This document shows, in pieces, positions 21,252 to 44,003 of a stretch of DNA of 64,000 bases (position 1 is the first letter of the stretch; each line of letters opens with the position of its first letter). The stretch is from Pseudomonadota bacterium (GTDB lineage Bacteria; Pseudomonadota; Gammaproteobacteria; Burkholderiales; Thiobacillaceae). The stretch lies in NCBI GenBank assembly GCA_021847835.1, contig JAJZPR010000006.1, positions 1 through 64,000 on the forward strand, read 5' to 3'. The notes below the pieces were generated by a model. The model saw only the letters and a program-made list of their open reading frames with translations, was not told the DNA's origin and made no database searches. The translations under genes and the position numbers were made by a program.

Positions 21252-21587
21252 CTAGTCGTGCGCGGCCTCGGCCAGGGCCTGCATGACCTCGTTCAGCGAG
21301 CCCTGATCGTTTTGCACCATGCACACCAGATTGCCCATGGAACATACACTCATCCGCTCGCCTTGCACGATCCAGCCCTGCGAGGGGGACCAGCCGCGCA
21401 TTTGCGAAAACAGCGAGAGCAGGTCGGTATTGCCCGACACCATGCGGCGGTACCACTGCGCGAACCGGCTCAATCTTTCCATCATGTCGGCCGGCAGCGT
21501 GCCCGCTGCATCCATGATGCTGCCGTCATCCTGAAAGCGGCACACCGCGACCACGCCGTCCAGAACGAGTAGTTTTCTGAGTGTCAT
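21252..21587 (-). CDS. DUF2173-like protein, third of a tandem triplet
   Basis: This 111-residue protein (MTLRKLLVLDGVVAVCRF) is homologous by eye to the two genes upstream. Shared text runs L-L-x-L-x-G-V-V-A ... GWxPSQGWIVQG ... VCSMGNLVCMVQN ... LNEVMQAL. The pattern matches DUF2173 proteins, small soluble proteins related to the roadblock/LC7 fold and frequent in sulfur- and iron-oxidizing proteobacteria. Function is unknown. There is no signal peptide or membrane helix. It overlaps the middle paralogue by 4 nt (ATGA). The family label is from memory and should be checked by a profile search. Confidence 0.6.
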   Translation of the reverse strand: MTLRKLLVLDGVVAVCRFQDDGSIMDAAGTLPADMMERLSRFAQWYRRMVSGNTDLLSLFSQMRGWSPSQGWIVQGERMSVCSMGNLVCMVQNDQGSLNEVMQALAEAAHD

Positions 21588-21946
21588 GCAGCCCCCTGCC
21601 CATGGGCGCCGCACGCCTGAACGGCATTGAACGCGTCTTCGTAATTGACGTCGCGGTTCTTCATGATCACGCCGCAGCGCCCGTTGACCACCGCCGACCA
21701 CTCCAGGCCCACCATGGAAAACCCTTGCAGCGGCTCGAAGCCCTTCTGCCCGGTCAGCGCTTCCCAGCCCCTGGCTTCCAGCGTGGCGACGGCCATGTTG
21801 GCCACGCACGAGTGCGCCAGCAGGTCGAGCACCTGCGGCGTGATCTCGCTGCCCTCGCGCACGCGATGATCGATCAGGTCGCCCTTGTCGGTGTAGGAAA
21901 AGGCCGCCAGCGCGCCCGGCAAATCCATCAATTGGTCCAGATTCAT
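21584..21946 (-). CDS. DUF2173-like protein, second of a tandem triplet
   Basis: The 120-residue product (MNLDQLMDLPGALAAFSYTDKGDLIDHR) is soluble and has the family pattern: LMxLPGxxAAFxYxDKGDL at the N-terminus, then GFEPLQGFSMVGLEWSAVVNGRCGV aligned to the QGWIVxG...VCxxGN region of its neighbours. It retains the Gly-Gln-Gly turn but not the VCxxGN motif exactly, making it the most diverged of the three. Overlap of 4 nt with the third gene and an AGGGGA Shine-Dalgarno indicate operonic expression. Confidence 0.6.
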   Translation of the reverse strand: MNLDQLMDLPGALAAFSYTDKGDLIDHRVREGSEITPQVLDLLAHSCVANMAVATLEARGWEALTGQKGFEPLQGFSMVGLEWSAVVNGRCGVIMKNRDVNYEDAFNAVQACGAHGQGAA

Positions 21947-21966
21947 GTTGTCCCCTATTTTTTCGT

Positions 21967-22371
21967 TTAGTACAAGGCTTCTTTCACGTCCCCGCCTATC
22001 CTGGCGTACAGGCTGACCAGAAGGTCGTCGCCGATATCGCCCACCTTGGCGCGCATGATGGTCATGACGTCGTTGAGCAGTTCCGGGCGGTTTTCGATGA
22101 AGGCGAAATAATTGCCGATGTTGCACACCGTGGCCTGGGCACCGCGCACGATCCAGCCCTGCACCGGCTTGCAGCCGCAGTTCCCGGCGAAGGAATCGAA
22201 AATCTCGGACTGCATGTTCACGCTCATGGTGTTGGAACGGCAAAGAATCGATGCCATGCGCGCGAATTCGGCAGTGAGCGCGCCTTCATACGAGAAGCGG
22301 TCGCCGCGATAGGCGAACTCGCCCGCCGCGATCACGCCCGGAATGGCCATGAGTTGCTTTACGATATGCAT
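21967..22371 (-). CDS. DUF2173-like protein, first of a tandem triplet
   Basis: The 134-residue product (MHIVKQLMAIPGVIAAGEFAYRGDRF) opens the triplet, with a strong GGAGGGGG ribosome-binding site. Family text: LMAIPGVIAAG, CGCKPVQGWIVRG, ATVCNIGNYFAFIEN, LLNDVMTIM. The cysteines in GNCGCKP and VCNIGN could be functional, but the pair is not fully conserved in the paralogues. A short C-terminal extension (DDLLVSLYARIGGDVKEALY) is absent from the others. It is divergent from the RDD gene, and the shared 88-bp region must contain both promoters. Confidence 0.62.
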   Translation of the reverse strand: MHIVKQLMAIPGVIAAGEFAYRGDRFSYEGALTAEFARMASILCRSNTMSVNMQSEIFDSFAGNCGCKPVQGWIVRGAQATVCNIGNYFAFIENRPELLNDVMTIMRAKVGDIGDDLLVSLYARIGGDVKEALY

Positions 22372-22459: not shown

Positions 22460-22891
22460 ATGCACGAAAACGCAACCACCCCCATGCAGCCGGCCGGCCT
22501 CAGGCGCCGCCTTGCCGCCATGCTCTATGAATCGCTGCTGCTGTCCGCCCTGGCGATGGTCGCGGGCTTTGCCTACATCCCGGTGTTCGGCGGCATCCAG
22601 GGGCCATTCCAGAAGGCGGTGTTCCAACTCTACCTGCTGGGGGTGATGCTGCTCTACTTCGTGGTGTTCTGGAAACGCGGGGGGCAGACCCTGGCCATGA
22701 AGACCTGGCGCATCCGCCTGGTCAGGGCGGACGGCGGGCCGCTCTCGACCGCGCAGTGCGTCGCCCGCTTCGGTCTGGCCACGCTGGGCCTGCTGTGCGC
22801 GGGGGCGGGATTCCTGTGGGCGCTCGTCGATCCCGAGCGGCAGTTTCTGCACGATCGCCTGTGCCGCACCAGGCTGGTGAGAACCGACTGA
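22460..22891 (+). CDS. RDD family integral membrane protein
   Basis: The 143-residue protein carries the RDD domain. An early LRRRLAAMLYESLLL matches the Arg-Asp position (here R-x-x-A-xx-YE), with hydrophobic segments near residues 22-42, 52-72 and 105-125. WKRGGQTLAMKTWRIRLVRADGG is the strongest family signature. The C-terminus ends LIDPERQFLHDRLCRTR-like text with the conserved DRLxxT. RDD proteins are thought to transport small solutes or ions, but the substrate here is unknown. It is convergent with lptG. Confidence 0.85.
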   Translation: MHENATTPMQPAGLRRRLAAMLYESLLLSALAMVAGFAYIPVFGGIQGPFQKAVFQLYLLGVMLLYFVVFWKRGGQTLAMKTWRIRLVRADGGPLSTAQCVARFGLATLGLLCAGAGFLWALVDPERQFLHDRLCRTRLVRTD

Positions 22892-32063: not shown

Positions 32064-32573
32064 TCAGATGAACAGGCAGATATCGGATTCGCCGGCGAAC
32101 TCGAAGAAGGTGGCGGCGCCGCCGTATTCGAGGCCCTCGATGAAGTCGCCGTGCTCGAAACCGAACAGTTCCACGGTCATCTGGCAGGCGATGAACTTGA
32201 CGTCGGCTTCCTGGCACAGGCTGCGCAGTTCGGGGATGGTGGCCACGCCGTTGTTGGCGATGGTCATTTTCATCAGGCTGGTGGCGACGTTCTCGTAGCC
32301 CGGCACCAGGGACTGCACGGCATTGGGGATGTTCCAGTTGATGCCCTTGAACCACTTGGGACCGAAAGGCATTTTCATCGGCATGCCGGGATTGCCCAGC
32401 GGGCTGACCTTGAGGCCGGAAAGATCCTTGCGCACCAGTTGCAGACCGTAGAAGGTGAAGAAAATCTGCACTTCATAGCCCAGCGCCGCGGCAGTCGAAG
32501 CCAGGATGAAGGGCGGATAGGCCCAGTCCAGCGTCCCCTTGGTTGCGATGATGGCGAGTTTTTTGGTTTCCAT
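32064..32573 (-). CDS. dsrE2: DsrE2-like sulfur transfer protein
   Basis: The 169-residue protein belongs to the DsrE/DsrF-like superfamily. It begins METKKLAIIATKGTLDWAYPPF. The conserved cysteines are Cys120 and Cys130 in LCQEADVKFIACQMTVELFGF. In purple and colourless sulfur bacteria DsrE2 is encoded with rhodanese and TusA, and these three relay sulfane sulfur through persulfides. That is exactly the arrangement here (rhd-tusA-dsrE2). The hydrophobic stretch PPFILASTAAALGY suggests membrane association, as known for DsrE2. A terminator lies between tusA and this gene, so it may be expressed at a lower or separate level. Confidence 0.82.
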   Translation of the reverse strand: METKKLAIIATKGTLDWAYPPFILASTAAALGYEVQIFFTFYGLQLVRKDLSGLKVSPLGNPGMPMKMPFGPKWFKGINWNIPNAVQSLVPGYENVATSLMKMTIANNGVATIPELRSLCQEADVKFIACQMTVELFGFEHGDFIEGLEYGGAATFFEFAGESDICLFI

Positions 32574-32602
32574 TGTCAGTTCCTCCCGGTCTTGTAATAA
32601 AC

Positions 32603-32636
32603 AAAAAAGGCGCCTGACCTGCCGGCCGGCGCCTTA
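32603..32636 (-). terminator. Terminator-like hairpin between tusA and dsrE2
   Basis: Minus-strand AAGGCGCC, 12-nt loop, GGCGCCTT and a T-run (32603-32608). It lies 12 nt after the tusA stop and about 30 nt before the dsrE2 start, so it should limit read-through within the relay cluster. Confidence 0.75.
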
Positions 32637-32647
32637 TGTCTTTATTC

Positions 32648-32875
32648 TTACTTCTTCTTCATGAAGAAGGTGTATTCGCCTCCCGCTTCGGCGGAATTGA
32701 CCAGGTCATTGCCGGTCTGCTTGGCAAAGGCCTGCATGTCCTTGACGGAACCCGGGTCGGTGGCGAGCACTTTCAGGATCTCGCCGCTGGCCATTTCGGC
32801 AAGCGCCTTCTTGGTGCGCAGGATGGGCAGGGGGCAGTTCAGGCCGCGGGCGTCAAGTTCTTTGTTGAATTCCAT
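32648..32875 (-). CDS. tusA: TusA family sulfurtransferase
   Basis: The 75-residue protein has the TusA/SirA fold and the CPxP signature in LDARGLNCPLPILRTKKAL, with active Cys14. In sulfur oxidizers TusA takes sulfur from rhodanese and passes it to DsrE-type proteins or to the cytoplasmic oxidation machinery (Dsr or Hdr-like). Neighbours here are exactly rhodanese upstream and dsrE2 downstream, which favours the dissimilatory role over tRNA thiolation. A 14-bp palindrome CGCTAACGTTAGCG lies upstream at 32911-32924. Confidence 0.92.
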   Translation of the reverse strand: MEFNKELDARGLNCPLPILRTKKALAEMASGEILKVLATDPGSVKDMQAFAKQTGNDLVNSAEAGGEYTFFMKKK

Positions 32876-32910
32876 TGTGTCTCTCCGAAACGGGTTAATA
32901 AATCAGGAAA

Positions 32911-32924
32911 CGCTAACGTTAGCG
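32911..32924. promoter_or_regulatory. Perfect 14-bp palindrome upstream of tusA
   Basis: CGCTAACGTTAGCG is perfectly self-complementary, 35 nt before the tusA start. A related imperfect palindrome ATTAGCGTTCGTTAAT lies upstream of rhd (33298-33313). The shared TTAGCG half-site suggests a common DNA-binding regulator; which one is unknown. Confidence 0.4.
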
Positions 32925-32956
32925 CACGCGTCGAATTATTGCAACAAGACGGGGGT

Positions 32957-33271
32957 TCAGGACGCCAGCGCCTTGCCGTCACGCGCCCAGCCCATGATGC
33001 CGCCGGCAAGATTGTAAACGTTGTCGACGCCCTGCGACATCAGCCAGGCGCAGGCCTGCGCCGAGCGGGCGCCGGAACGGCAGTAGAACACGATGGGCTC
33101 GCTGCCTTTCAGATCCTGAAGCTTCAGCGGCAGCATGTGCAGCGGAATATGCGTGGAACCTTCGATCTTGGCCTGGGCATGCTCGGCCTCGGTGCGCACG
33201 TCGATGAGCTGCACGCCGGACTTCAGGGCTTCTTCAAGCTGATGGGAATCGATTTCGCGAATGCCAAACAT
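32957..33271 (-). CDS. Single-domain rhodanese sulfurtransferase
   Basis: This 104-residue cytoplasmic protein has one rhodanese domain: QLIDVRTEAEH near residue 21-31 and the active loop YCRSGARSAQAC with nucleophile Cys64. No signal peptide. In sulfur-oxidizing bacteria the first gene of the rhd-tusA-dsrE2 set encodes such a rhodanese, which mobilizes sulfane sulfur onto TusA. It is 98 nt downstream of soeC on the same strand, tying sulfur delivery to sulfite oxidation. The downstream gap to tusA contains a perfect palindrome. Confidence 0.9.
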   Translation of the reverse strand: MFGIREIDSHQLEEALKSGVQLIDVRTEAEHAQAKIEGSTHIPLHMLPLKLQDLKGSEPIVFYCRSGARSAQACAWLMSQGVDNVYNLAGGIMGWARDGKALAS

Positions 33272-33297
33272 GGGTGTATAGCTCCCGGAAAGGTAAA

Positions 33298-33313
33298 TTA
33301 ACGAACGCTAATA
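33298..33313. promoter_or_regulatory. Imperfect palindrome upstream of rhd
   Basis: On the minus strand ATTAGCGTTCGTTAAT; arms ATTA-CG and CG-TAAT match around an A/T-rich centre. It lies 26 nt from the rhd start and shares the TTAGCG half-site with 32911-32924. Confidence 0.35.
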
Positions 33314-33369
33314 TAGCAAAATTCCCTGAGAAATCAAGCCATAAGCCATGCCGCCATCATGGTTTAGGC

Positions 33370-34305
33370 TCAACAGCGCTGGGCGCCGTGGTACAGGTTC
33401 ACGACATGGCGCGCTTCTGCGAAAAACAGCCAGCGTTCGGCCACCAGCCCCGCGAAAACCGACACCAGCGCGGCGATGCCCAGCGAGGTCGCATGATATT
33501 CCAGCGCGATGTAGAGCAGCACCACGGGCACGGCGAAAGCCAGCAGCATGGAAATCAGGCGCAGGCTGAAGGCGGTCAGGCGCGGCACGACATAGCCGAA
33601 TTCCTGGGTGAGGAAGGTGCCGTGGGTATGGCCGGCGTCCAGCAGCTTGACCTGGGCGCGGGTGAAGCCGGTAGCGGTGTTGATGGTGGAGCCCACGCCC
33701 AGGCGGCCGATCCAGTAATAGTAGATCGCCTTGACGAAGGCCGCGACGAAGAGCTGGAACAGCGACAGCATCACGAAGGGCAGGGTCTGCACACCGGCCA
33801 GCATGGCCACCACCAGCAGGATCATGCCGCCGGAAAAATGCCCGAGCGACAGATAGGCCGCGGGTACCAGCGGCGTGTTCCAGTGGCGGATGGTCTTGAG
33901 GCTGGCGTAGATCATGGCGGTGGAGAAGATCGTCAGCCAGGCGAGCAGCGTGGCGGCGGCGCCGGCGAAATGGCGCACGACCGGCCACATGTCGAGCCAA
34001 TACAGCCCCAGGTAGGCCAGCGCGAACGGATAGAAGGCCACCGACAGCACGCCCTCGCGCGACAGCCAGGAAGTACGCCAGCGCGAGAACGCGCGCCAGG
34101 CGTTCTTGGGGTTGGCCAGGTGGAAGGTCGAGGACAACAGGCCCACGCCGACCATGACGATGGAGAGCACGCCGGTCCAGAACACGTAGGCGCCGGGCAG
34201 GCCGCCGCCCAGCTTGAAAAGATCAGCCAGGTAAATCAGGGCAAAGAGCCCGAAACCCGCGCCGGACAGCACGGTAAAGAAAATGACCGAGAAAGCCGGA
34301 TGCAT
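33370..34305 (-). CDS. soeC: Sulfite dehydrogenase membrane subunit SoeC (DmsC/NrfD-type)
   Basis: The 311-residue protein has about eight hydrophobic segments and belongs to the DmsC-like anchor family. It starts MHPAFSVIFFTVLSGAGFGLFALIYL. Conserved text includes GLLSSTFHLANPKNAWRAFSRWRTSWLSREG, read in parts, and the RLGVGSTINTATG stretch. SoeC anchors the SoeAB catalytic pair on the cytoplasmic face and passes electrons to quinone. Gene order soeA-soeB-soeC on the minus strand supports this. The related PsrC/DmsC subunits are alternatives if the complex acts on another sulfur compound. Confidence 0.82.
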   Translation of the reverse strand: MHPAFSVIFFTVLSGAGFGLFALIYLADLFKLGGGLPGAYVFWTGVLSIVMVGVGLLSSTFHLANPKNAWRAFSRWRTSWLSREGVLSVAFYPFALAYLGLYWLDMWPVVRHFAGAAATLLAWLTIFSTAMIYASLKTIRHWNTPLVPAAYLSLGHFSGGMILLVVAMLAGVQTLPFVMLSLFQLFVAAFVKAIYYYWIGRLGVGSTINTATGFTRAQVKLLDAGHTHGTFLTQEFGYVVPRLTAFSLRLISMLLAFAVPVVLLYIALEYHATSLGIAALVSVFAGLVAERWLFFAEARHVVNLYHGAQRC

Positions 34306-34396
34306 GAATTTTCCCTCTACTAAATAGCGTCCTCGCTCCCTGGGAGGAGGATCCTTTTATTTTGCCGCCCTCCCCTGGCCGGGAAGGGATCCCCAA

Positions 34397-35095
34397 TCAA
34401 CGCCTGACCATGCGGTTGACGAACTGCTTCAACTTGCCCGCGAGGCCCGCCTTGTCCGCACCCATGTCGGTGGGAATGGGCTTGTGCTTGCGCGGCGGCA
34501 GGTAGTGGTTGGTGGGGTTGTAGCCCAGCTCGGGCATCAGCACGTAGCCTTCGCGCTCGCGCACCACCTTGCTCACCTCGGAATCGGGGTCGTCGAAATC
34601 GCCGAACATGCGCGCGTGCGCCGGGCAGGTCAGCACGCAGGACGGCTGGCGCTCGGCTTCGGGGATGTTCTGGTCGTAGATGCGATCCACGCACAGGGTG
34701 CATTTCTTCATGGTGCCGGATTCGCGGTCGAGTTCGCGCGCGCCGTAAGGGCAGGCCCATGAGCAGTAGTTGCAGCCCATGCACTTGTCCTGGTCCACCA
34801 GCACGATGCCGTCTTCCGCACGCTTATAGCTTGCACCCGTGGGGCACACGGTGACGCAGTCGGCGTCCTCGCAGTGCATGCACGACATCGGGAAGTTGAC
34901 GGTCTTGTTGTTGGGGTAGGTGCCGACTTCATAGTGGCGGATGCGGTTGAACCACACGCCCGAGGGCTCGGCGCCGAAGGGCTGATAGTCCGTCAGCGGG
35001 CCGGTGGTGCCGGAGGCGTTCCATTGCTTGCAGGACACCGCGCAGGCATGGCAGCCCACGCACACGTCCAGGTCGATAACCAGTCCTAGTCTCAT
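34397..35095 (-). CDS. soeB: Sulfite dehydrogenase iron-sulfur subunit SoeB
   Basis: This 232-residue ferredoxin-like subunit has four cysteine clusters: CVGCHACAVSC (residues ~12-22), CMHCEDADCVTVCP, CMGCNYCSWACP, and CTLC with a later CVLTCP. It should bind four [4Fe-4S] centres. No signal peptide is present, consistent with a cytoplasmic complex. It begins MRLGLVIDLDVCVGCHACAV. SoeB transfers electrons from the molybdenum subunit to SoeC. The 91-bp gap to soeC holds a G/C-rich imperfect hairpin. Confidence 0.88.
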   Translation of the reverse strand: MRLGLVIDLDVCVGCHACAVSCKQWNASGTTGPLTDYQPFGAEPSGVWFNRIRHYEVGTYPNNKTVNFPMSCMHCEDADCVTVCPTGASYKRAEDGIVLVDQDKCMGCNYCSWACPYGARELDRESGTMKKCTLCVDRIYDQNIPEAERQPSCVLTCPAHARMFGDFDDPDSEVSKVVREREGYVLMPELGYNPTNHYLPPRKHKPIPTDMGADKAGLAGKLKQFVNRMVRR

Positions 35096-35122
35096 GTTGT
35101 TGCTCGCTTGATTCTTTTAAGC

Positions 35123-37999
35123 TCAGTTTTCTTCGTGCTTGCGGCGTGCGTCATAGCGCAGCACGTCGGGGCGGCTGTAATGGTCGGTGGGCAGCTTCTT
35201 GACCGTGCCGAATTGCGGCCAGCTACCGGTCTCGCCGTCGTTGGCCTTGCATATCTTCACGCGCAGGTCGAACCACGCCGCCTGGCCGGAGACCGGGTCG
35301 GAGTTGGTGATGCGGCGCTCGCCCTGTTTCTCCGGCAAGAGCTCGGAAATCAGGTGGTTCAGGAGAAAGCCCTTGGTCGCTTCGGACGCGTCTTCCTTCA
35401 GCCCCCAGGCCCCGCGCTGCTTGCCGATGGCGTTCCAGGTCCACACCGTGTCTTCCTGGGTGCCTTCCATGGTCTTCAGCTGGCAGCGGATCTTGCCGTT
35501 GTGCGACTCCACCCACACCCAGTCGTAATCCTTCAGCCCCATGTCGGCGGCTTTCTTCGCGTTCATGTAGAGGAAGTTCTGGGCCATGATCTGCCTGAGC
35601 CACACGTTCTGCGAATCCCAGGAGTGGTACATGAACATGGGACGCTGGGTGAGCGCGAAGAAGGGATACTCCCCGGCGTCCACGCGCTGCTGTTCCAGCG
35701 GCTCGTACCACATGGGCAACGGGTCGAAATACTTGGTGAGGCGCTCCTTGTCCGCGGGATCTTTCGGCTGCGGCCCGTCGTACAGGCCCTGGCCGGCGAG
35801 GCGGAACTTCTGCAGCGGCTCGGAGTAGAACTGCATGATGATGGGCTCGACCTTGCCGACGAAGCCGGCGTCCGCAGCGACTTCGAGGTAGTCGCGGTTC
35901 ACGAAGCGCATGTACTTCTGGTTGTCCGGCCAGTGGTGGGCGAAGAAGCTCTGGTTGTCGATGTAGGCCTGCCACTGGTTCGGGTTGGGCTCGCCCTTGA
36001 GCGATTTCGTCCCGTCCTTGCCGCGCCAGCCGGAGAGGAAGCCCACGCCGGGCGAGCGCTCGTAGTTGACGATGAAGTCGGGGTAGTCCTTGAACTTGCG
36101 CGTGCCGTCGGCGTTGGTGAAGGCCGGAAACTTGAGGCGCCCCGCCAGTTCCACCATGACTTCCTGCCAGGGGCGCACGTTGCGGTCGGGCGTGATCAGC
36201 GGATAGCGGATGGCATCGGCCGCCGCGTCCGGCTCGGAAATCGGGCGGTCGAGCAGGGAAATGCAGTCGTGGCGCTCGAGATAGGTAGTATCCGGCAGCA
36301 CCAGGTCGGCGAAATTGACCATTTCCGAATGGAAAGCGTCGATCACCACCAGGAAGGGAATCTTGTATTCGCCCGGCTCCTCGGGATCCTTTTCGCGCAG
36401 CATGTCCTGCACGTTCTTGGTATTCATGGACGAGTTCCACGCCATGTTGGCCATGAACAGGATCAGGGTGTCGATCGCGTAGGGGTCATGGTTGGTGGCA
36501 TTGGTGATTACCATGTGCATCATGCCGTGCGAGGACAGCGGCGTTTCCCACGAGAAGGCCTTGTCGATGCGCAGCGGGTTGCCGTGCTCGTCTATCACCA
36601 GATCTTCCGGCCGCGTGGGGAAGCCCAGCGGCGGGCGCGACAGCGGGGTGTTGGGCGCATTGATGATGTCGAGGTTGTTTTCCGGCAGCTGGTGCGGCGG
36701 GATGGGTTTGGGATACGGCGCGCGGGCGCGGAAGTTGCCGGGGCCGTCGAGGGCGCCCAGCAGCATCTGGATGAAGTGGATGGCGCGGCAGGCGTGGAAG
36801 CCGTTGGAGTGCGCGGAAATGCCGCGCATGGCGTACATCGCCACCGGGCGGCCGACGACCTTGTCATGCTTGCGGCCCCACACGTCGGTCCACTCGATGG
36901 GCAGCTCGATGGCTTCCTTGAAGGCCACGTGCGCCATTTCCAGCGCGATGCGCTCGATGCTCTCGGCCGGCACGCCGCACTCGGCCGCGACATTGGCCGG
37001 GGCGTAGCGCTCGTCCAGATAGCGCTCGGCCATCAGGGTGAACGCGGTCTTCAGGCGGCGGCCGTCATTGGCCACGAAATCGCCGAACAGCGCCGGGGTG
37101 ATGCCCACGTCGGCGCCGTTGACGAAGCTTTCCTTTTCCAGATCCCACACCTGCGGCTGGCCGTTCTCGTCGCGCAGGAACAGGCCGTCGTCCTTGTGGC
37201 CGGGGTTCTGGATCACCAGCCAGGGGGCGTTGGTGTAGTTGATGAGGAATTCGTAATCGAACAGTTCGCGGTTCAGCAGCACGTGCACGATGGACATGGC
37301 GAAGAGGCCGTCCATGCCCGGCTTGATCGGCACCCATTCGTCGGCGATGGCGGAATAGCCGGTGCGCACGGGGTTGACCGAGACGAACTTGCCGCCGCCG
37401 CGCTTGAGCTTTTCCAAACCGATCTTGATGGGGTTGGAGGAGTGGTCCTCGGCCACGCCCCACAGGATGAAGTACTTGGCGTAATCCCAGTCGGGCGCGC
37501 CGAATTCCCAGAACGAGAAGCCGATGGTATAGAGGCCCGCAGCCGCCATGTTGACCGAGCAGAAGCCGCCGTGCGCCGCCCAGTTGGGCGTGCCGAACTG
37601 CTGCGCCCACAGGCCGGTCAGCGCCTGCATCTGGTCGCGGCCGGTGAAGAAGGCGAGCTTGGACGGGTCGGTGGAGCGGATTTCCGAGAGGCGCTCGGTG
37701 AGGATGTCCAGGGCCCGGTCCCACTCGATGGCCTCGAACTCGCCGGCGCCGCGCTCGGTGCCGGGCTTGCGGATCAGCGGCTGCGACAGGCGCGCCTTGG
37801 AGTATTGCTTCATGATACCCGCCGAACCCTTGGCGCACAGCACCCCCTGGTTGGTGGGATGGTTCTTGTTGCCCTGGATATAGCGAACCTTGCCCTCCTG
37901 CAGCGTCACCTTGATGCCGCAGCGGCAGGCGCACATGTAGCAGGTGGAATATTTGATTTCCTGTTTGGAATGGTCTTCGACCGGAATGCGTGCGTTCAT
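35123..37999 (-). CDS. soeA: Sulfite dehydrogenase (quinone), molybdopterin subunit SoeA
   Basis: This 958-residue protein belongs to the DMSO reductase family (bis-MGD). A [4Fe-4S] motif CYMCACRCGIKV ... GVLCAKG is followed by the Mo-binding Cys region GGFCSVNMAAAGLY. It lacks a twin-arginine signal, unlike the periplasmic PsrA/PhsA thiosulfate and polysulfide reductases, which points to the cytoplasmic SoeA type that oxidizes sulfite to sulfate. ATG 37999 (MNARIPVEDHSKQ) is chosen; a start at 38083 would add 28 residues, without a clear Shine-Dalgarno either way. A dyad CCCGCGGA-AAC-TCCGTGGG (one mismatch, 38025-38043) precedes it. moaC, needed for its cofactor, is about 1.5 kb upstream. 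Confidence 0.85.
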   Translation of the reverse strand: MNARIPVEDHSKQEIKYSTCYMCACRCGIKVTLQEGKVRYIQGNKNHPTNQGVLCAKGSAGIMKQYSKARLSQPLIRKPGTERGAGEFEAIEWDRALDILTERLSEIRSTDPSKLAFFTGRDQMQALTGLWAQQFGTPNWAAHGGFCSVNMAAAGLYTIGFSFWEFGAPDWDYAKYFILWGVAEDHSSNPIKIGLEKLKRGGGKFVSVNPVRTGYSAIADEWVPIKPGMDGLFAMSIVHVLLNRELFDYEFLINYTNAPWLVIQNPGHKDDGLFLRDENGQPQVWDLEKESFVNGADVGITPALFGDFVANDGRRLKTAFTLMAERYLDERYAPANVAAECGVPAESIERIALEMAHVAFKEAIELPIEWTDVWGRKHDKVVGRPVAMYAMRGISAHSNGFHACRAIHFIQMLLGALDGPGNFRARAPYPKPIPPHQLPENNLDIINAPNTPLSRPPLGFPTRPEDLVIDEHGNPLRIDKAFSWETPLSSHGMMHMVITNATNHDPYAIDTLILFMANMAWNSSMNTKNVQDMLREKDPEEPGEYKIPFLVVIDAFHSEMVNFADLVLPDTTYLERHDCISLLDRPISEPDAAADAIRYPLITPDRNVRPWQEVMVELAGRLKFPAFTNADGTRKFKDYPDFIVNYERSPGVGFLSGWRGKDGTKSLKGEPNPNQWQAYIDNQSFFAHHWPDNQKYMRFVNRDYLEVAADAGFVGKVEPIIMQFYSEPLQKFRLAGQGLYDGPQPKDPADKERLTKYFDPLPMWYEPLEQQRVDAGEYPFFALTQRPMFMYHSWDSQNVWLRQIMAQNFLYMNAKKAADMGLKDYDWVWVESHNGKIRCQLKTMEGTQEDTVWTWNAIGKQRGAWGLKEDASEATKGFLLNHLISELLPEKQGERRITNSDPVSGQAAWFDLRVKICKANDGETGSWPQFGTVKKLPTDHYSRPDVLRYDARRKHEEN

Positions 38000-38024
38000 G
38001 GTTTCAAAAGGCAAATTCAGCACC

Positions 38025-38043
38025 CCCGCGGAAACTCCGTGGG
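38025..38043. promoter_or_regulatory. Imperfect dyad upstream of soeA
   Basis: CCCGCGGA-AAC-TCCGTGGG pairs with a single mismatch, 25-44 nt before the chosen soeA start. If the longer start at 38083 is used, it lies inside the coding region. Operator or leader structure cannot be told apart. Confidence 0.35.
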
Positions 38044-38136
38044 CCAAGTCCAGCATAGTGGAACACAGCCTAAAAAGCTGCACAGAATGGCAGCCGGGAC
38101 TTCCGGCCGGTCAGACCGGGGGATGCGTCAGGCAAT

Positions 38137-38166
38137 AAAAAAACCGCCAATCAATATTAACGGTTT
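38137..38166 (-). terminator. Possible terminator after the TlpA gene
   Basis: Minus-strand AAACCG, a 14-nt A/T-rich loop and CGGTTT followed by a long T-run (38137-38143). It lies ~100 nt past the tlpA stop and before soeA. The short stem makes it moderate. Confidence 0.45.
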
Positions 38167-38264
38167 CGAATATTGCGTTATTTTGCTGTAACGCCGCGCT
38201 TTGTGCAATCAACGAATTAAATTCATACCCAAAAAAATTAAATCGCGACCGTGGGCAGGGGCTT

Positions 38265-38771
38265 TCAGCGCATCAGCCCCTCAATCAGCGACACGGCCTT
38301 GCCCTCGTCCCACTCGGTCGGGCCGGCGAGCGCATAGCGCACCCTGCCCTGCTTGTCGATGAGGAAGCTGGCGGGCAGGCCATATACTTTCCAGCGCTTG
38401 GTGGCCGCGCTGTCGGGATCGAGCAGCAGGGTGAAATCCACCTTGATCCGCTTCAGGAACGCATCCAGGTCGGCAGGCTGCTCGCCGGAATTGACACCCA
38501 GCATGACGAAGGGCCTGCCGGCCATTTTTTCCTTGAGCCGCTGCATGGACGGCATTTCCTCGCGGCAGGGCGGGCACCAGGTCGCCCAGAAGTTCACCAG
38601 CACCACCTTGCCCTTGTAGGCATCGAGCGAGTGGACTTTGCCGCTCCTGTCCTTAAGCGCCAGAGGCGGCGGCGTGACGCCGTTGATCTTGACGAATTCC
38701 GCAGCCTCGACGGCAAGCGCGAACAGCGCAAAAACCGGCAACAGCAGCCAGCGCAGATAATGGGTCGTCAT
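38265..38771 (-). CDS. TlpA family thioredoxin-fold protein
   Basis: This 168-residue secreted protein (signal MTTHYLRWLLLPVFALFALAVEA) has the active-site motif WATWCPPCREEMPSM (CPPC) and cis-Pro segment VYGLPASFLIDKQGR. It acts as a periplasmic thiol:disulfide oxidoreductase. Its position between soe and sox suggests a role for Sox or cytochrome thiols, in the manner of SoxS/SoxW, but that is inference. ATG 38771 overlaps the upstream gene's stop by 4 nt, so the pair is co-translated. Confidence 0.83.
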   Translation of the reverse strand: MTTHYLRWLLLPVFALFALAVEAAEFVKINGVTPPPLALKDRSGKVHSLDAYKGKVVLVNFWATWCPPCREEMPSMQRLKEKMAGRPFVMLGVNSGEQPADLDAFLKRIKVDFTLLLDPDSAATKRWKVYGLPASFLIDKQGRVRYALAGPTEWDEGKAVSLIEGLMR

Positions 38772-39481
38772 TTAAGTTTTTTCCTCCATTCGGCAATGCG
38801 TTCGGCCAGGCGCCCGCCTTCGGCGATTTCGGATTCGGTCGCGGTCTCGCGCACCCAGTAGCGCTCGCGCATCCCTTCCAGCATGAGCACCTGCGCCTTG
38901 GCGCCGTCTTTGCGCAGGGCAGCCAGCTGGTCGCCCACCCAAGGGGTCGCGGCCGAGCGGCGTGGCTGAAGTACGAGCGCATCGACCCCCTTCAAGTTCC
39001 CGAAAGACAGATAATCCGCGCCCACCAGCGTGTCCACGCCGGAATAGAAATGCGGGTGCATGAGCAGGACGGCGGTGCGCCCGCAAGGTTTGTGCGCCAG
39101 CCCCCGCAATACCGGCACGGCGGCGCGGTTGACCGCGTACACCGTGAGTTTCCTCCCGGTCTTGCACGCGCGTCCAAAAATGGCCCGCACATCCTTCACG
39201 TCGACGCCATCCATGCTGCTGTTGGTCTGGGGCAGGAAAAACGCGTTGACGAAATCGAACTGCCAGACCTCGGTACCCTTCAAGGCAAGCTCGCGCGCCG
39301 CCTGGATTTCCGCGGGCGCCAGCCCGCGCTCGGACGCGAACCACAGCAAAAGTTGCCCGCCATTCGCCGGATGGCGCGTATAGGTCAGGGTTTCGCCGGA
39401 GGGCAGCGCAAGGCTCGCCTCCTCCGCATGCGCGGAAGCGGCCGACAGCAGGATAAAGAAGCAGGCCAGGAAAAGTCTCAT
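38768..39481 (-). CDS. Secreted protein of unknown function, paired with TlpA
   Basis: I do not recognise the family. The 237-residue product starts at ATG 39481 with a clear signal peptide (MRLFLACFFILLSAASAHAEE). The remainder has an alpha/beta-hydrolase-like rhythm: GQLLLWFASERGLAP, VWQFDFVNAFFLP, ALVLQPR and AQVLMLEGMRERYW. A GxSxG nucleophile elbow is not evident, so catalysis by a serine is doubtful. Two cysteines occur (RACKTGRK and HKPCGRT). It overlaps tlpA by 4 nt, suggesting that the TlpA protein maintains it. Confidence 0.7.
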   Translation of the reverse strand: MRLFLACFFILLSAASAHAEEASLALPSGETLTYTRHPANGGQLLLWFASERGLAPAEIQAARELALKGTEVWQFDFVNAFFLPQTNSSMDGVDVKDVRAIFGRACKTGRKLTVYAVNRAAVPVLRGLAHKPCGRTAVLLMHPHFYSGVDTLVGADYLSFGNLKGVDALVLQPRRSAATPWVGDQLAALRKDGAKAQVLMLEGMRERYWVRETATESEIAEGGRLAERIAEWRKKLK

Positions 39482-39554
39482 GGCTTTGTATTGTGTACGA
39501 ACGGGCAAATACGGTAAGGGCACATTCGTACTTTGCACCCCCGCCCTTTTACGA

Positions 39555-40031
39555 CTAAGCCTCCCACACGCCGGACTTGCCGCCCTCCTTGCGCAGGAGG
39601 CGCACGCCTTCGATGATCATGCCGCGGTCGACCGCCTTGCACATGTCGTAAATGGTGAGCAGGGCCACGCCCACGCCGGTGAGCGCTTCCATCTCGACGC
39701 CGGTCTTGCCGGTGGTTTCGGCCGTCACCGTGCAACGGATGCAGGATTCTCCGGCGTCCAGTTCGAAATCGGCCGCCAAATGCGTCAGCGCCAGCGGATG
39801 GCACAGCGGGATCAGCTCCGAGGTGCGCTTGGCCGCCTGGATCGCCGCCACCCGCGCCACGCCGAGCACGTCGCCCTTTTTCGCGCCGCCGGCCGCGACC
39901 ATTTCCAGGGTGGCCTTGTCCATGCGAATGGAGCCGGCGGCAATCGCGCGCCTGGCCGTGTCCTGCTTGGCGCCGACATCGACCATGATGGCGCGCCCGT
40001 GTTCGTCGAAATGGGTGAAACCGCCGCTCAT
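39555..40031 (-). CDS. moaC: Cyclic pyranopterin monophosphate synthase
   Basis: MoaC converts the MoaA product into cyclic pyranopterin monophosphate, the first molybdenum cofactor intermediate. The 158-residue protein starts [33 protein letters not shown] and contains the family stretches [31 protein letters not shown], and [21 protein letters not shown] with catalytic Lys/His/Asp residues. A MoCo gene next to the molybdenum enzyme SoeA is consistent with its use there. It is divergent from the M48 protease with 48 bp between starts. Confidence 0.97.
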
Positions 40032-40079
40032 TGTTAAACTCCATGCTGAACTCTTGATGAATCCGGCCATCTTAGCATC

Positions 40080-41507
40080 GTGAGACGAATCCCCATCCTG
40101 CTGCTTGCCATGATGATCGCCATGCCGCAGGGCATGGCCAACAACCTGCCCGATCTCGGCGAAGCCTCCCGCGAGCATTTCTCCGAGAAGCAGGAAAGGG
40201 ACATCGCGCGTTCCATCATGCGCGACATCCATGCGAGTCCGTCCTACCTCGCCGACGCCGAAACCGAAGCCTATCTGAACGGCCTGGGCAGGCGTCTTGC
40301 CGCGGAAAGCTCGGCCAGCGGCCGCAGCTTCACTTTCTTCGCCATGCGCGAGCCTTCCGTCAACGCCTTCGCGCTGCCCGGCGGCTACATCGGCGTGCAC
40401 ACCGGGCTGATCCAGGCCGCGGAAAGCGAGTCGGAACTGGCCGGCGTGCTGGCGCACGAAATCGCCCACGTTTCCCAGGAGCATCTCTCGCGCATGATCG
40501 CCCAGCAGGACCGGAACTACCTGCCCACGCTCGCCGCCATCGCGGTCGCGGTGCTGGCCGCGCGCTCGAACGCCAACGTCGGCTCGGCCGCGCTCGCCAC
40601 CGGCCAGGCGCTCAGCCTGCAAAGCCAGCTGAATTTCACCCGCGAGAACGAGCGCGAAGCCGACCGCGTCGGGCTGGACATCCTGGCCGGCGCCGGTTTC
40701 GACCCGCGCGGCATGTCCGGCTTCTTCGGCCGCCTGCAGCGGGCCAACCGCCTGTACGACAACAACGCGCCGGAATACCTGCGCACCCATCCGCTCAACA
40801 GCCAGCGCATCGCCGACATCGACGGCCGCCTGGAACGCATGTCTTACAAGCAGGTGCGCGATTCCAGGGAATTCCATTTCGTGCGCGCACGTCTTGTCGC
40901 CCTGGACGGCAGCGCCGACGAAGCCGTCGCCCGCCTGCGCGATCAGGTGCAGAACCGGAAGACGCCGCTGGAAGCCGCCAGCCGCTATGGCTTGGCGCTG
41001 GCGCTCATGCGGCAGAACAAATTTGCCGAAGCGGAAAAGGAGTTGGCGCTGGCGGCCAAGGCAGGCGAGTCGGCCATGCTGCTCAATCTGCGCGCCGAAC
41101 TCAAGGCAAGGGCGGGCGACTCCAGGCAGGCCCTGAGCCTCTACCAATCCGCCCTCTCGCGCCATCCGCAGCATCTGCCGCTGGTCTATGGCTACGGCGA
41201 CGCCCTGATCCGCGCCGGGCAGGCGCAGAAGGCAGCCGATTTCATCTCCCGCCAGTCGCGCCAGCGGCCCGACGATGCGCGCCTGTGGAGGCTGCTCGGC
41301 CGGGCGCACGCCGCGCTCGGGCACAGGCTCGCCAGCCACCGCGCCGAGGCCGAGGCGTTCGCGGCGCAAGGCAACCTGACCGCCGCAGTGGAACAGGTCA
41401 GCCTCGGCCTCAAGGCCGGCGACGGCGATTTCTACGAGCTTTCCGCAGCCGAGGCGCGCCGCCGCGAATGGCAGGAATCGCTCGCCGCTGAAAGCCGCAA
41501 GAAGTAG
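40080..41507 (+). CDS. bepA: BepA/YfgC-like M48 metalloprotease with TPR repeats
   Basis: This 475-residue periplasmic protein has a signal peptide (from GTG 40080: [20 protein letters not shown]). The zinc protease motif [10 protein letters not shown] follows, with ligands His126 and His130 and catalytic Glu127; a third ligand probably lies in [18 protein letters not shown]-rich C-terminal half begins near residue 275. BepA promotes assembly or degradation of LptD and other outer-membrane proteins. The GTG start is supported by its position just before the signal-peptide text. It ends before the sox operon. Confidence 0.88.
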
Positions 41508-41721
41508 CGCAGACCGCAGCGCGCACGTATGAAAATAATCGCGGCAGTAGTATTAATCTACTTGCGCAAAACCCGGCAAAAAACGGTCTTGACTATTGCA
41601 TGGGGAAAACATCCTGCTCTATGCTTGGCACATCCATAAAGGATGACCTGTTGCCAGATAAGGATTTCCGCATGTTTCTGGCGACGCGTTCGACACTTCA
41701 ATAGCCAACATTAAACGGAGG
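41508..41721. promoter_or_regulatory. sox upstream region: dyad and weak promoter
   Basis: This 214-bp gap precedes soxX. It has an imperfect palindrome GTAGTATTAATCTAC (41547-41561) and, downstream, TTGCAT (41596-41601), an 18-nt spacer and TATGCT (41620-41625), which could serve as a sigma70-type promoter about 95 nt before the ATG. The soxX ribosome-binding site is GGAGGA. Nothing else is recognised. Confidence 0.4.
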
Positions 41722-42093
41722 ATGACTATGCGGACAATCAAACTGGCAGTGGCAGCAGGTATCGCTGGCATGATGGTAATGGCCTCGACCGTCCAGGCCG
41801 CCGACGCCCCCAAAAAGGAACTTACCGGCAAGGACATCGCCTACGACCGCTCCAAGGGCAACTGCCTGGCCTGCCATGGCATGCCCACCCAGTCCGATGC
41901 ACAGTCCACCGGCCTTATCGGACCGCCGCTCATCGCCATGAGCGCGCGTTATCCGGACAAGGCCAAGCTGCGCGCCAAGATCTGGGACGCCACCGCCTCC
42001 AACCCGGCCAGCCCCATGCCGCCCTTCGGCAAGCACAAGGTGCTGACGGAACAGGAAATCGACAAAGTCGCCGACTTTATTCACAGCCTCTAA
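41722..42093 (+). CDS. soxX: Sox c-type cytochrome subunit SoxX
   Basis: SoxX with SoxA forms the SoxAX cytochrome, which oxidatively couples thiosulfate to the SoxY carrier in the periplasm. The 123-residue protein has a signal peptide (MRTIKLAVAAGIAGMMVMASTVQA) and a single haem motif CLACH (Cys46, Cys49, His50). The probable distal Met97 is in SPMPPFG. Starts with a good GGAGGA ribosome-binding site. It opens the soxXYZAB cluster, whose next gene is soxY after 16 nt. Confidence 0.95.
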   Translation: MTMRTIKLAVAAGIAGMMVMASTVQAADAPKKELTGKDIAYDRSKGNCLACHGMPTQSDAQSTGLIGPPLIAMSARYPDKAKLRAKIWDATASNPASPMPPFGKHKVLTEQEIDKVADFIHSL

Positions 42094-42109
42094 TCCAAGG
42101 AGATATTGC

Positions 42110-42577
42110 ATGAACGCTTTGCGTAGAAACGTCCTCAAAGGCGCCACCGGCGCCGGCGCGGTTGCCGTTGCAGTGGCCGCCGGCCTGATCACGCCCGCCC
42201 GCGTGCTGGCCGCCACCCCGCGCTCCGCCTTCGAAGCCAAGGGCATGGCCGACACCATGAAAGCCATGGGCCTTTCCGCCCCGGCCGATTCCAGGGACAT
42301 CGCCATCAAGGCTCCCGACATCGCCGAAAACGGTGCCGTGGTGCCGGTGGAAGTCACCAGCCGCATTGCCGGCACTTCCGCCATCGCCATCCTGGCGGAG
42401 AAAAACGTCTCCCCTCTGATTGCCGACTTCAACTTCTCTGGCGGCGCACAGGGCTTCATTTCCACCCGCATCAAGATGGCCAGCACCTCGCTGGTGCGCG
42501 CGGTCGTGACGGCCGGCGGCAAAACCTACACCGCTGCCAAGGAAGTGAAAGTCACCATCGGCGGCTGCGGCGGTTGA
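42110..42577 (+). CDS. soxY: Thiosulfate oxidation carrier protein SoxY
   Basis: SoxY carries the covalently bound sulfur intermediates on its C-terminal cysteine. The 155-residue protein has an RR-type (Tat-like) signal (MNALRRNVLKGATGAGAVAV) and ends in VTIGGCGG, with the carrier Cys153 in the GGCGG motif. Export by Tat as a folded SoxYZ pair is known for the family. soxZ follows after ~50 nt. The Shine-Dalgarno AAGGAGA is strong. Confidence 0.97.
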   Translation: MNALRRNVLKGATGAGAVAVAVAAGLITPARVLAATPRSAFEAKGMADTMKAMGLSAPADSRDIAIKAPDIAENGAVVPVEVTSRIAGTSAIAILAEKNVSPLIADFNFSGGAQGFISTRIKMASTSLVRAVVTAGGKTYTAAKEVKVTIGGCGG

Positions 42578-42626
42578 TAACCCGAGCGCCAATTGATCGA
42601 ACAGAATTTGAGTAAAGGAAACGAAA

Positions 42627-42941
42627 ATGGCTGAACCAATGAAAATCCGCGCCACCATGCAGGGCGACGTGGCCGACGTGAAAGTGCTGATGAACCACCC
42701 CATGGAAACCGGCCAGCGCAAGGACGCGAAGACCGGTCAACTGATCCCCGCCCATCACATCAACACCGTCACCGCCAAGATCAACGGCGCCGCCGTAATG
42801 GAAGGCAACATGGCCGGCGGCGTGTCCAAGAACCCCTACCTGGGCTTCAAGGTCAAGGGCGCCAAGTCCGGCGACACCGTTGAAATATCCTGGGTGGACA
42901 ACAAGGGTGACAAGCGCACCGACACCGCCAAGATTAGCTGA
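42627..42941 (+). CDS. soxZ: Thiosulfate oxidation carrier complex protein SoxZ
   Basis: The 104-residue protein is the chaperone-like partner of SoxY, has no signal of its own and is co-exported with SoxY. It begins MAEPMKIRATMQGDVADVKVLMNHPMETG, and family text KTGQLIPAHHINTVT and GGVSKNPYLGFKVKGAKSGD is clear. It is located between soxY and soxA as in other soxXYZAB operons. Confidence 0.97.
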   Translation: MAEPMKIRATMQGDVADVKVLMNHPMETGQRKDAKTGQLIPAHHINTVTAKINGAAVMEGNMAGGVSKNPYLGFKVKGAKSGDTVEISWVDNKGDKRTDTAKIS

Positions 42942-43024
42942 CAAGGCATAATCGAGCGCGACACGGCCGGGGTATCCGCCCCGGCCGTGCATGTAGCAAA
43001 CCGCCAAAATCTCCGGAGGATGAT

Positions 43025-43855
43025 ATGAAAAAAGCAATAGTGGGGCTGATCGGCCTGGGTCTGTTGGGAGGCGCTGTCAATGTAATGGCTTCGCCGGAGT
43101 CGGATCGTCAGGAAGTGATCAAATACTTCACGACCAAATACCCGAACATCAGCATAGAGGATTACGTCTATGGCGCCCTGGCGTTCGACGCCGACTCCAA
43201 GGCCCAGTACGACGCGATCATGGAATTCCCGCCCTATGAATCGGTGCTGGAAAAGGGCAGGAAGATGTGGGAAACCCCGCTCAAGAGCGGCAAGAAATAT
43301 GCCGACTGCATGCCCAACGGCGGCAGGAACATCGCCGGCAACTATCCCTACTTCGATGAAAAGCTCGGCAAGGTCGTCACCCTGGAAGACGCTCTCAACG
43401 CCTGCCGCGTCGCCAACGGCGAGGAAGCCTACAAGCTGGGCGACAAAGGCACCATGGGCACGCTGACCGCCTACATGCGCACCCTGTCCGACGGCATGCT
43501 GATGAACGTCAAGGTCGAAAGCCCGAAGGCGCTGGCCGCCTATGAAGACGGCAAGAAGACCTTCTACAGCCGCGCCGGCCAGCTCAACTTCGCCTGCGCC
43601 ACCTGCCATATCCAGAATGCCGGCGTGCGCCTGCGCTCCGAACTGCTCTCCCCGGTTCTGGGACAGACCGTGCACTGGCCCGTGTTCCGCGGCGGCGACA
43701 ACCTCGTGACCCTGCAGAGCCGCTACCAGGGCTGCTTCAAGCAGGTGCGCCACGTGCCGGACAAGCAGGGCAGCGCCAAGTTCAACAACCTGGAGTACTT
43801 CCACTCCTACATGTCCAACGGCCTGCCGATGCAAGCTTCGGTGTTCCGCAAGTAA
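43025..43855 (+). CDS. soxA: Sulfur oxidation c-type cytochrome SoxA (monohaem)
   Basis: The 276-residue protein has a signal peptide (MKKAIVGLIGLGLLGGAVNVMA). One haem motif FACATCHIQ (Cys191, Cys194, His195) and the catalytic cysteine region SRYQGCFKQVR (Cys237, the persulfide-bearing haem ligand in SoxA) are present. Cys95 and Cys127 could replace the lost N-terminal haem of dihaem SoxA by a disulfide. It makes SoxAX with SoxX. ATG 43025 has a GGAGGA site. A strong terminator follows before soxB. Confidence 0.96.
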   Translation: MKKAIVGLIGLGLLGGAVNVMASPESDRQEVIKYFTTKYPNISIEDYVYGALAFDADSKAQYDAIMEFPPYESVLEKGRKMWETPLKSGKKYADCMPNGGRNIAGNYPYFDEKLGKVVTLEDALNACRVANGEEAYKLGDKGTMGTLTAYMRTLSDGMLMNVKVESPKALAAYEDGKKTFYSRAGQLNFACATCHIQNAGVRLRSELLSPVLGQTVHWPVFRGGDNLVTLQSRYQGCFKQVRHVPDKQGSAKFNNLEYFHSYMSNGLPMQASVFRK

Positions 43856-43875
43856 GCCTCCCAGCCGTGCATGCG

Positions 43876-43906
43876 AAAAAGGCCTGGCCAGTCCAGGCCT
43901 TTTTTG
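43876..43906 (+). terminator. Strong terminator between soxA and soxB
   Basis: GGCCTGG-CCAGT-CCAGGCC (43881-43899) flanked by A5 and followed by T6 (43900-43905), 20 nt after the soxA stop. Confidence 0.88.
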
Positions 43907-44003
43907 TTCAGGCCGCATGGCCCATAGCTACTATTTACCTGCCAGTCCGCGCGGCCGACAATTCAGCCATAGCCGTCCCAATACAACCCAGGAGAAAACC
44001 AAC

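Follow-up and report, generated by a model that had tools for sequence, protein, structure and literature searches.

Three small genes of the DUF2173 family lie side by side in the genome of a bacterium of the Thiobacillaceae (Pseudomonadota; GenBank assembly GCA_021847835.1, completeness approximately 97%, contamination 7%). They are within the first 64,000 nucleotides of contig JAJZPR010000006.1, and this whole stretch of DNA, which was analysed here, is referred to as the window. The arrangement raises the question of whether the three are tandem paralogues that happen to share an operon or distinct subunits of one assembly and, if the latter, what such an assembly would do. The genes and features concerned are:

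21967-22371, minus strand: subunit A, 134 aa, the first gene of the trio, DUF2173 with a predicted Roadblock fold and a conserved C-terminal tail
22297-22341, minus strand: residues 11-25 of A, containing PGVIAAGE (11-18) and GDR (23-25), invariant across the A clade
21584-21946, minus strand: subunit B, 120 aa, DUF2173
21252-21587, minus strand: subunit C, 111 aa, DUF2173 with a predicted Roadblock fold, overlapping B by 4 nt
22460-22891, plus strand: RDD-family membrane protein (PF06271), divergent from A and its usual neighbour

The three genes and their family

All three open reading frames are present, on the minus strand, at the place and with the lengths reported in a first-pass annotation made from the sequence alone. 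The same annotation described the genes as overlapping, which is true of B and C but not of A and B, these being separated by 20 nt. The trio is flanked in the window by the ilvBHC operon on one side and an RDD/lptGF block on the other. A search of the genome for further copies of DUF2173 identified none beyond A, B, and C.

Membership of DUF2173, which had been proposed, was confirmed by profile search. Against PF09941, A scores 124.8, B 109.4, and C 123.8 bits, far over the gathering score of 26.1 bits, and the matches span nearly the whole profile. BLASTP aligns A with C (E 1e-15, 28%) and with B (E 2e-09, 23%) and produces no alignment at all between B and C, thus B and C are connected only via A and the profile. 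Of the motifs listed as shared by the three, QGWIVxG, VCxxGN, and LNxVM are found in A and C and not in B, while LPGVxAA is present in A as IPGVIAA, is nearly present in B as LPGALAA, and is degenerate in C (LDGVVAV).

Sequence comparison does not connect DUF2173 to the canonical Roadblock proteins. The PF03259 (Roadblock/LC7) profile has no match to A, B, or C at E 1 or better, a sequence search of the PDB returned no match, and the score of an hhalign comparison between DUF2173 and one canonical Roadblock protein, used as a single-sequence template, is not significant. Literature searches for PF09941, and for COG4831 and IPR018685, which we take to be the same family, found nothing, and those for roadblock with sulfur oxidation or with Thiobacillus returned matches that are unrelated by title. 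Databases may, we presume, already label the DUF2173 family as Roadblock.

Predicted fold

The AlphaFold models of A (pLDDT 86.6) and C (pLDDT 95.8) are predicted to have the Roadblock/LC7 fold, as the first-pass annotation had supposed. In both models the elements follow one another as helix, two strands, long helix, three strands, helix. Among solved structures, the best match to each model is the Roadblock/LC7 domain 3kye (A: Z 12.8 across 109 residues; C: Z 15.7 across 103 residues), based on VIA-align, which re-scores the list produced by Foldseek. By Foldseek alone, Roadblock chains are again top-ranked for A (best E 5.3e-4). Chains of LAMTOR/Ragulator, Asgard Roadblock proteins, and MglB rank close after 3kye for both models. 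For A and C respectively, Z is approximately 12 and 15 with LAMTOR/Ragulator, 10.9 and 13.2 with MglB, and approximately 9 and 11 with EGO, all of which share the predicted fold. The structure alignments left out 8 of the 76 representatives, one of them C itself.

An ordered set of probable subunits

A total of 95 loci were confirmed in public genomes and the best 80 of these were kept. All were found via one short N-terminal pattern, so other architectures may be under-sampled. Among the best 80 of the 95 loci, 46 have the order A-B-C and 14 have a second set, A'-B'-C'. There are 11 d1-d2 pairs, two d1-d2-d1-d2 arrangements, one d1-d1-d2, which is perhaps due to a split gene, and three single genes. 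Parts of sets are present at contig ends, being A-B in L117, d2 in L057, and d1 in L092. No other order of the trio was found in these 80 loci, and a partial trio is seen only at a contig end.

The copy numbers follow a similar pattern. All nine genomes of the home genus have exactly three copies of DUF2173. In genus g6 (Thiobacillus), 50 of 56 genomes are positive, with three copies in 28, six copies in 15, and 5, 5, 7, 7, 7, 4, and 1 copies in the other seven. Three or six copies are therefore carried by 52 of the 59 positive genomes of these two trio-bearing genera. Gene order was counted in the 80 loci.

A quick tree of 167 rows was made once 61 of 228 sequences, being near-identical or shorter than 80 aa, had been removed. 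In this tree A (26 rows, SH-aLRT 93), B (34 rows, 93), and C (40 rows, 99) are separate clades, each of which contains both betaproteobacteria and gammaproteobacteria. B' groups with B (SH-aLRT 98) and C' with C (92), and the placement of A' is unsure; the columns are few and the B' and C' joins are possibly long-branch artefacts. A smaller tree of 42 rows shows both of these groupings as well, and a similar warning applies there to B'. If these joins are right, the three roles arose before the two sets diverged.

A, B, and C are an ordered set inherited together, mostly in sulfur-oxidizing bacteria. PF09941 is a family without an assigned function; here it is represented not by a single gene but by three members in a fixed order, each with a clade of its own. 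The proposal that the trio has been retained as a set of different subunits is supported by the ordered loci, the copy numbers, and the separate clades. The three genes have strong profile similarity and are not independently distributed, the reverse of what the first-pass annotation had named as grounds for doubting it. It is from such ordered and complete sets that we infer a hetero-oligomer, and the fixed order and the separate clades would likewise point to a heteromer.

Selection and conserved residues

Comparison of the window's genes with those of seven relatives gives dN/dS ranges of 0.008-0.100 (A), 0.033-0.206 (B), and 0.063-0.195 (C). On the whole A has the lowest ratios of the three across the 21 comparisons in total; in 8 of these dS is >1, which makes the ratios of those 8 rough. 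The trio is under purifying selection within the home genus. In 48 aligned sequences of A from beta- and gammaproteobacteria, PGVIAAGE, GDR, and Cys44-Arg45 are invariant. The C-terminal tail of A is conserved in 39 of the 48 and is shorter in the other nine, all of which are gammaproteobacterial. The residue of C that corresponds to Cys44 is a Gln. Across 47 loci the three proteins diverge in a correlated manner (r 0.87-0.91), which shared ancestry alone would also produce.

Distribution and the link to sulfur oxidation

DUF2173 is rare. In a sample of 299 genomes of the phylum it is present only in the window's own genome, and it was found in 17 of 61 relatives and in 64 of 117 genomes of the home family. 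The family had been called common in sulfur and iron oxidizers; it is not confined to these, with Methanosarcina acetivorans and Sulfolobus acidocaldarius matching among 14 control genomes. Conversely, many sulfur oxidizers are without the trio.

Across families, the suggested co-occurrence with sulfur oxidation is supported. For this comparison, 27 carriers were hand-picked from the best 80 of the 95 loci, one of them (G461) being the same as the home-family genome G020. SoxY is present in 24 of the 27 carriers, versus 103 of the 299 genomes of the phylum sample, the window's genome included. DsrA is present in 18 of 19 proteobacterial carriers, versus 18 of 40 hand-picked SoxY-positive non-carriers, and in none of the eight other carriers (seven Aquificota-type and one archaeon). 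HdrB-like proteins are found in 22 of the 27 carriers and 19 of the 40 SoxY-positive non-carriers, all of these matches being below the family cut-off and not proof of sHdr. Either DsrA or an HdrB-like protein is present in 26 of the 27 carriers versus 21 of the 40 SoxY-positive non-carriers (Fisher 9e-05). Without G461 the carrier counts become 24/26 for SoxY (Fisher 5e-09), 17/18 for DsrA (3e-04), 21/26 for HdrB-like proteins (0.01), and 25/26 for DsrA or HdrB-like proteins (1e-04), values that overstate the significance since the genomes are related and hand-picked and carriers from three phyla are compared with one phylum.

Co-occurrence within the home family was also considered and was rejected as not discriminating. 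It is uninformative there because SoxY is present in 100 of the 117 genomes and DsrA, over the cut-off, in 94; SoxY does not distinguish the 64 carriers, 57 of which have it, from the 53 genomes without DUF2173, 43 of which do (Fisher p 0.29). Three genomes of genus g6 (G023, G382, and G393) each have dsrA in triplicate, all three copies scoring above the family cut-off, which indicates multiple rDsr sets.

Positions 32064-45713 of the window contain a DsrE2-like gene, a SoeABC-like molybdoenzyme, a cytochrome c, SoxY, and a SoxB-like gene. The first-pass annotation placed the trio about 9.7 kb from the sulfur genes, and this distance is right, the near end of the DsrE2-like gene being at 32064. 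As evidence, however, the proximity was discarded, since the distance is not conserved and no sox gene was found in the flanks searched at the 80 loci. The trio is approximately 20 kb from SoxY in three genomes of the home genus (that of the window and two others), on a different contig from it in the other six, and approximately 1.5 Mb from it in two single-contig genomes of genus g6. In the best 80 of the 95 loci, BLASTP of flanks of up to 9 kb per side with the DsrE2, SoeC, SoxX, SoxY, and SoxB proteins of the window as queries gave no match near the set, to sox genes or to the other two. The searched sequence extends to 8 kb on the left side at 48 of these best 80 loci and on the right side at 41. 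Relatives of SoeA or SoeB are in the flanks of two of the best 80 of the 95 loci (L052 and L085), and no conserved clustering with sulfur oxidation genes was seen there with the DsrE2, SoeC, and sox queries. The association with sulfur oxidation is genuine, though an indirect one.

Search for a GTPase partner

Roadblock proteins of known function mostly work with small GTPases or are dynein light chains, and both MglB and Ragulator belong to the former group. In ten carriers from the home family, the PF00025 Arf profile identified no stand-alone small GTPase, matching only frames of 297-1018 aa. Twenty non-carrier relatives are much alike, the shortest Arf-profile frame being 221 aa. Outside the home family, 7 of 27 other carriers have short Arf-profile frames; these are of 180-202 aa in five of the seven Aquificota-type genomes, 165 aa in G448 (E 1.7e-8), and 232 aa in G456 (E 1.1e-5). 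The Hydrogenobaculum carriers G436 and G437 have no short Arf-profile frames.

A motif scan for GTPases in 736 ORFs of 100-320 aa, of the 1,251 kept from the best 80 of the 95 loci, was empty, using a pattern that recovers all three of the Aquificota GTPases on which it was tried. In two of three loci checked (L179 and L182), the Aquificota GTPase is accompanied by a canonical PF03259 Roadblock gene, adjoining it or one gene away. These genomes also carry DUF2173 pairs, at a different locus, and the GTPase-Roadblock pairs are a separate system.

According to PMC4316618, most small MglA GTPases (390 of 449) are coupled to MglB. The trio differs from MglB in having no such partner found in the ten home-family carriers searched, either nearby or elsewhere in the genome, in consisting of three different subunits, and in the lack of a match to PF03259. 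The absence of a stand-alone small GTPase from the ten home-family carriers makes the role of an MglB-like GTPase regulator seem unlikely for the trio. PMC4316618 also records orphan prokaryotic MglB homologues, uncharacterised in 2014, and therefore Roadblock proteins without a partner are a kind already known. As far as the literature searches show, the new part is the ordered three-subunit form. Another report (PMC4476040) describes a fusion of a globin with a Roadblock domain.

Pairs and single genes

The d1-d2 pairs occur in Aquificota, Hydrogenophilus, and some Thiobacillus. At 13 of the 16 pair-type loci among the best 80 of the 95, a gene of an SCP2 cluster and one of a PAS sigma-54 activator cluster are nearby, two members of each cluster having been identified by Pfam. 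An exact sigma-54 -24/-12 site is just upstream in 8 of these 16 pair-type loci and is near none of the 61 trio-type loci among the same best 80; overall, 1.08 Mb of sequence contains 14 exact sites, counting both strands. The pairs with such sites upstream are L049, L051, L054-L056, L058, L059, and L092, most of them beside the PAS activator and SCP2 genes. A literature search with SCP2 and Hydrogenobaculum found no description of such a regulated operon. In one Thiobacillus genome assembled from a metagenome (L052:3499-8988), a DUF2173 pair is 68 nt downstream of a molybdopterin oxidoreductase operon on the same strand, which encodes a catalytic subunit, two Fe-S proteins, and a chaperone like the nitrate reductase delta subunit.

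Single genes occur in the Sulfolobaceae, where 24 of 31 genomes have a strong copy and one genome has two. Their context is only partly conserved: of 20 fetched loci, 6 have gene clusters c2 and c1 next to the DUF2173 gene. Among 19 strong Sulfolobaceae copies of 112-135 aa, there is no strongly hydrophobic 19-residue stretch, the maximum being 1.44. These single-copy relatives show that the DUF2173 domain is able to work alone. Two of the 20 fetched Sulfolobaceae loci (L163 and L167) have relatives of SoeA or SoeB no more than approximately 8 kb away from their lone DUF2173 gene. A pair of weak DUF2173 relatives is also present in the Sulfolobaceae (L177:5672-6461), the second of which is 158 aa and has a hydrophobic stretch of 2.33. 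In the home family, genus g12 lacks the set and carries just one DUF2173 gene, a divergent one (L040, L043, and L047).

Proposed role of the set

It is probable, on balance, that A, B, and C are specialised subunits with the Roadblock/LC7 fold that form one cytoplasmic hetero-oligomer. The subunits would bind one another, probably in the dimer mode of Roadblock proteins, and the resulting platform would be asymmetric, with A presenting the most conserved surface. As a stand-alone small GTPase was found neither next to the genes nor among the ten carriers of the home family that were searched, the platform would most likely act as a GTPase-free scaffold or sensor. Judged by co-occurrence, its client is likeliest to be part of the cytoplasmic sulfur metabolism of lithotrophs. 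More tentatively, the three-subunit platform could organise or sense the oxidation of cytoplasmic sulfane sulfur, by rDsr or sHdr, in beta- and gammaproteobacterial lithotrophs, with a sigma-54-activated two-subunit form mostly in Aquificota; this more specific version is possible, although we would not expect it to be correct in full.

Ragulator and EGO contain several different Roadblock subunits in one assembly, which is the arrangement proposed for the trio. These complexes are eukaryotic, have Rag-type GTPases in the matched entries, and in LAMTOR/Ragulator and EGO are anchored to membranes; neither such GTPases nor an anchor was seen for the trio.

The likeness could instead mean that the trio regulates a small GTPase in the manner of MglB or Ragulator, whether as GAP, GEF, or platform, and that this GTPase is encoded at a distance or is too divergent to be recognised. 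The match of C to two GTPase-linked systems and the short Arf-profile frames of five Aquificota-type genomes, G448, and G456 are in its favour, but these frames are missing from the ten home-family carriers searched and from both Hydrogenobaculum genomes, the non-carriers look much the same, the scan of loci that should have revealed known GTPases was empty, and two of the three Aquificota GTPases already sit with a canonical Roadblock gene. Such a regulator is doubtful. Tandem paralogues with independent roles, together only through the structure of the operon, would explain the lack of BLASTP similarity between B and C and the existence of single-copy relatives. This is unlikely given the invariant order of the trio, the prevalence of three or six copies, and the correlated divergence, even though the last could come from shared ancestry alone. 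It is also conceivable, but quite unlikely, that DUF2173 subunits carry a hydrophobic or sulfane-sulfur ligand, such as polysulfide, and pass it to a lipid-transfer-like partner. The SCP2 and PAS activator genes and the sigma-54 sites of the pair-type loci, as well as the invariant Cys44 of A, would fit with this, but the trio loci showed no gene of the SCP2 cluster and C has Gln in place of the cysteine.

If the hetero-oligomer is real, then a strongly selected set of three Roadblock subunits for which no stand-alone GTPase can be found would represent a different use of the fold. It would be predicted to be one complex that needs all three genes and, with rDsr- or Hdr-like proteins in nearly all of the carriers, it would provide sulfur biology with a new candidate component.

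Neighbouring genes

Of the 47 A loci among the best 80 of the 95, 41 have the RDD gene upstream of A in divergent orientation. Of the remainder, it is absent in five and the contig end is too near in one; the misses at L116 and L120 are possibly filter errors, and the L120 contig does hold an RDD gene (as L046). The RDD gene was considered as a functional partner and rejected. It is read as probable synteny, since RDD and lptG are located together in many loci and RDD is missing from three trios of Sedimenticola/Chromatiaceae. None of the 14 A' loci among the same best 80 has RDD upstream. In L066 (7279-8347), L068, L074, and L080, the A'B'C' set is behind a small unannotated gene and a further gene, which in L066 is a DUF1540 gene, with a gamma-glutamyltranspeptidase further upstream in that locus.
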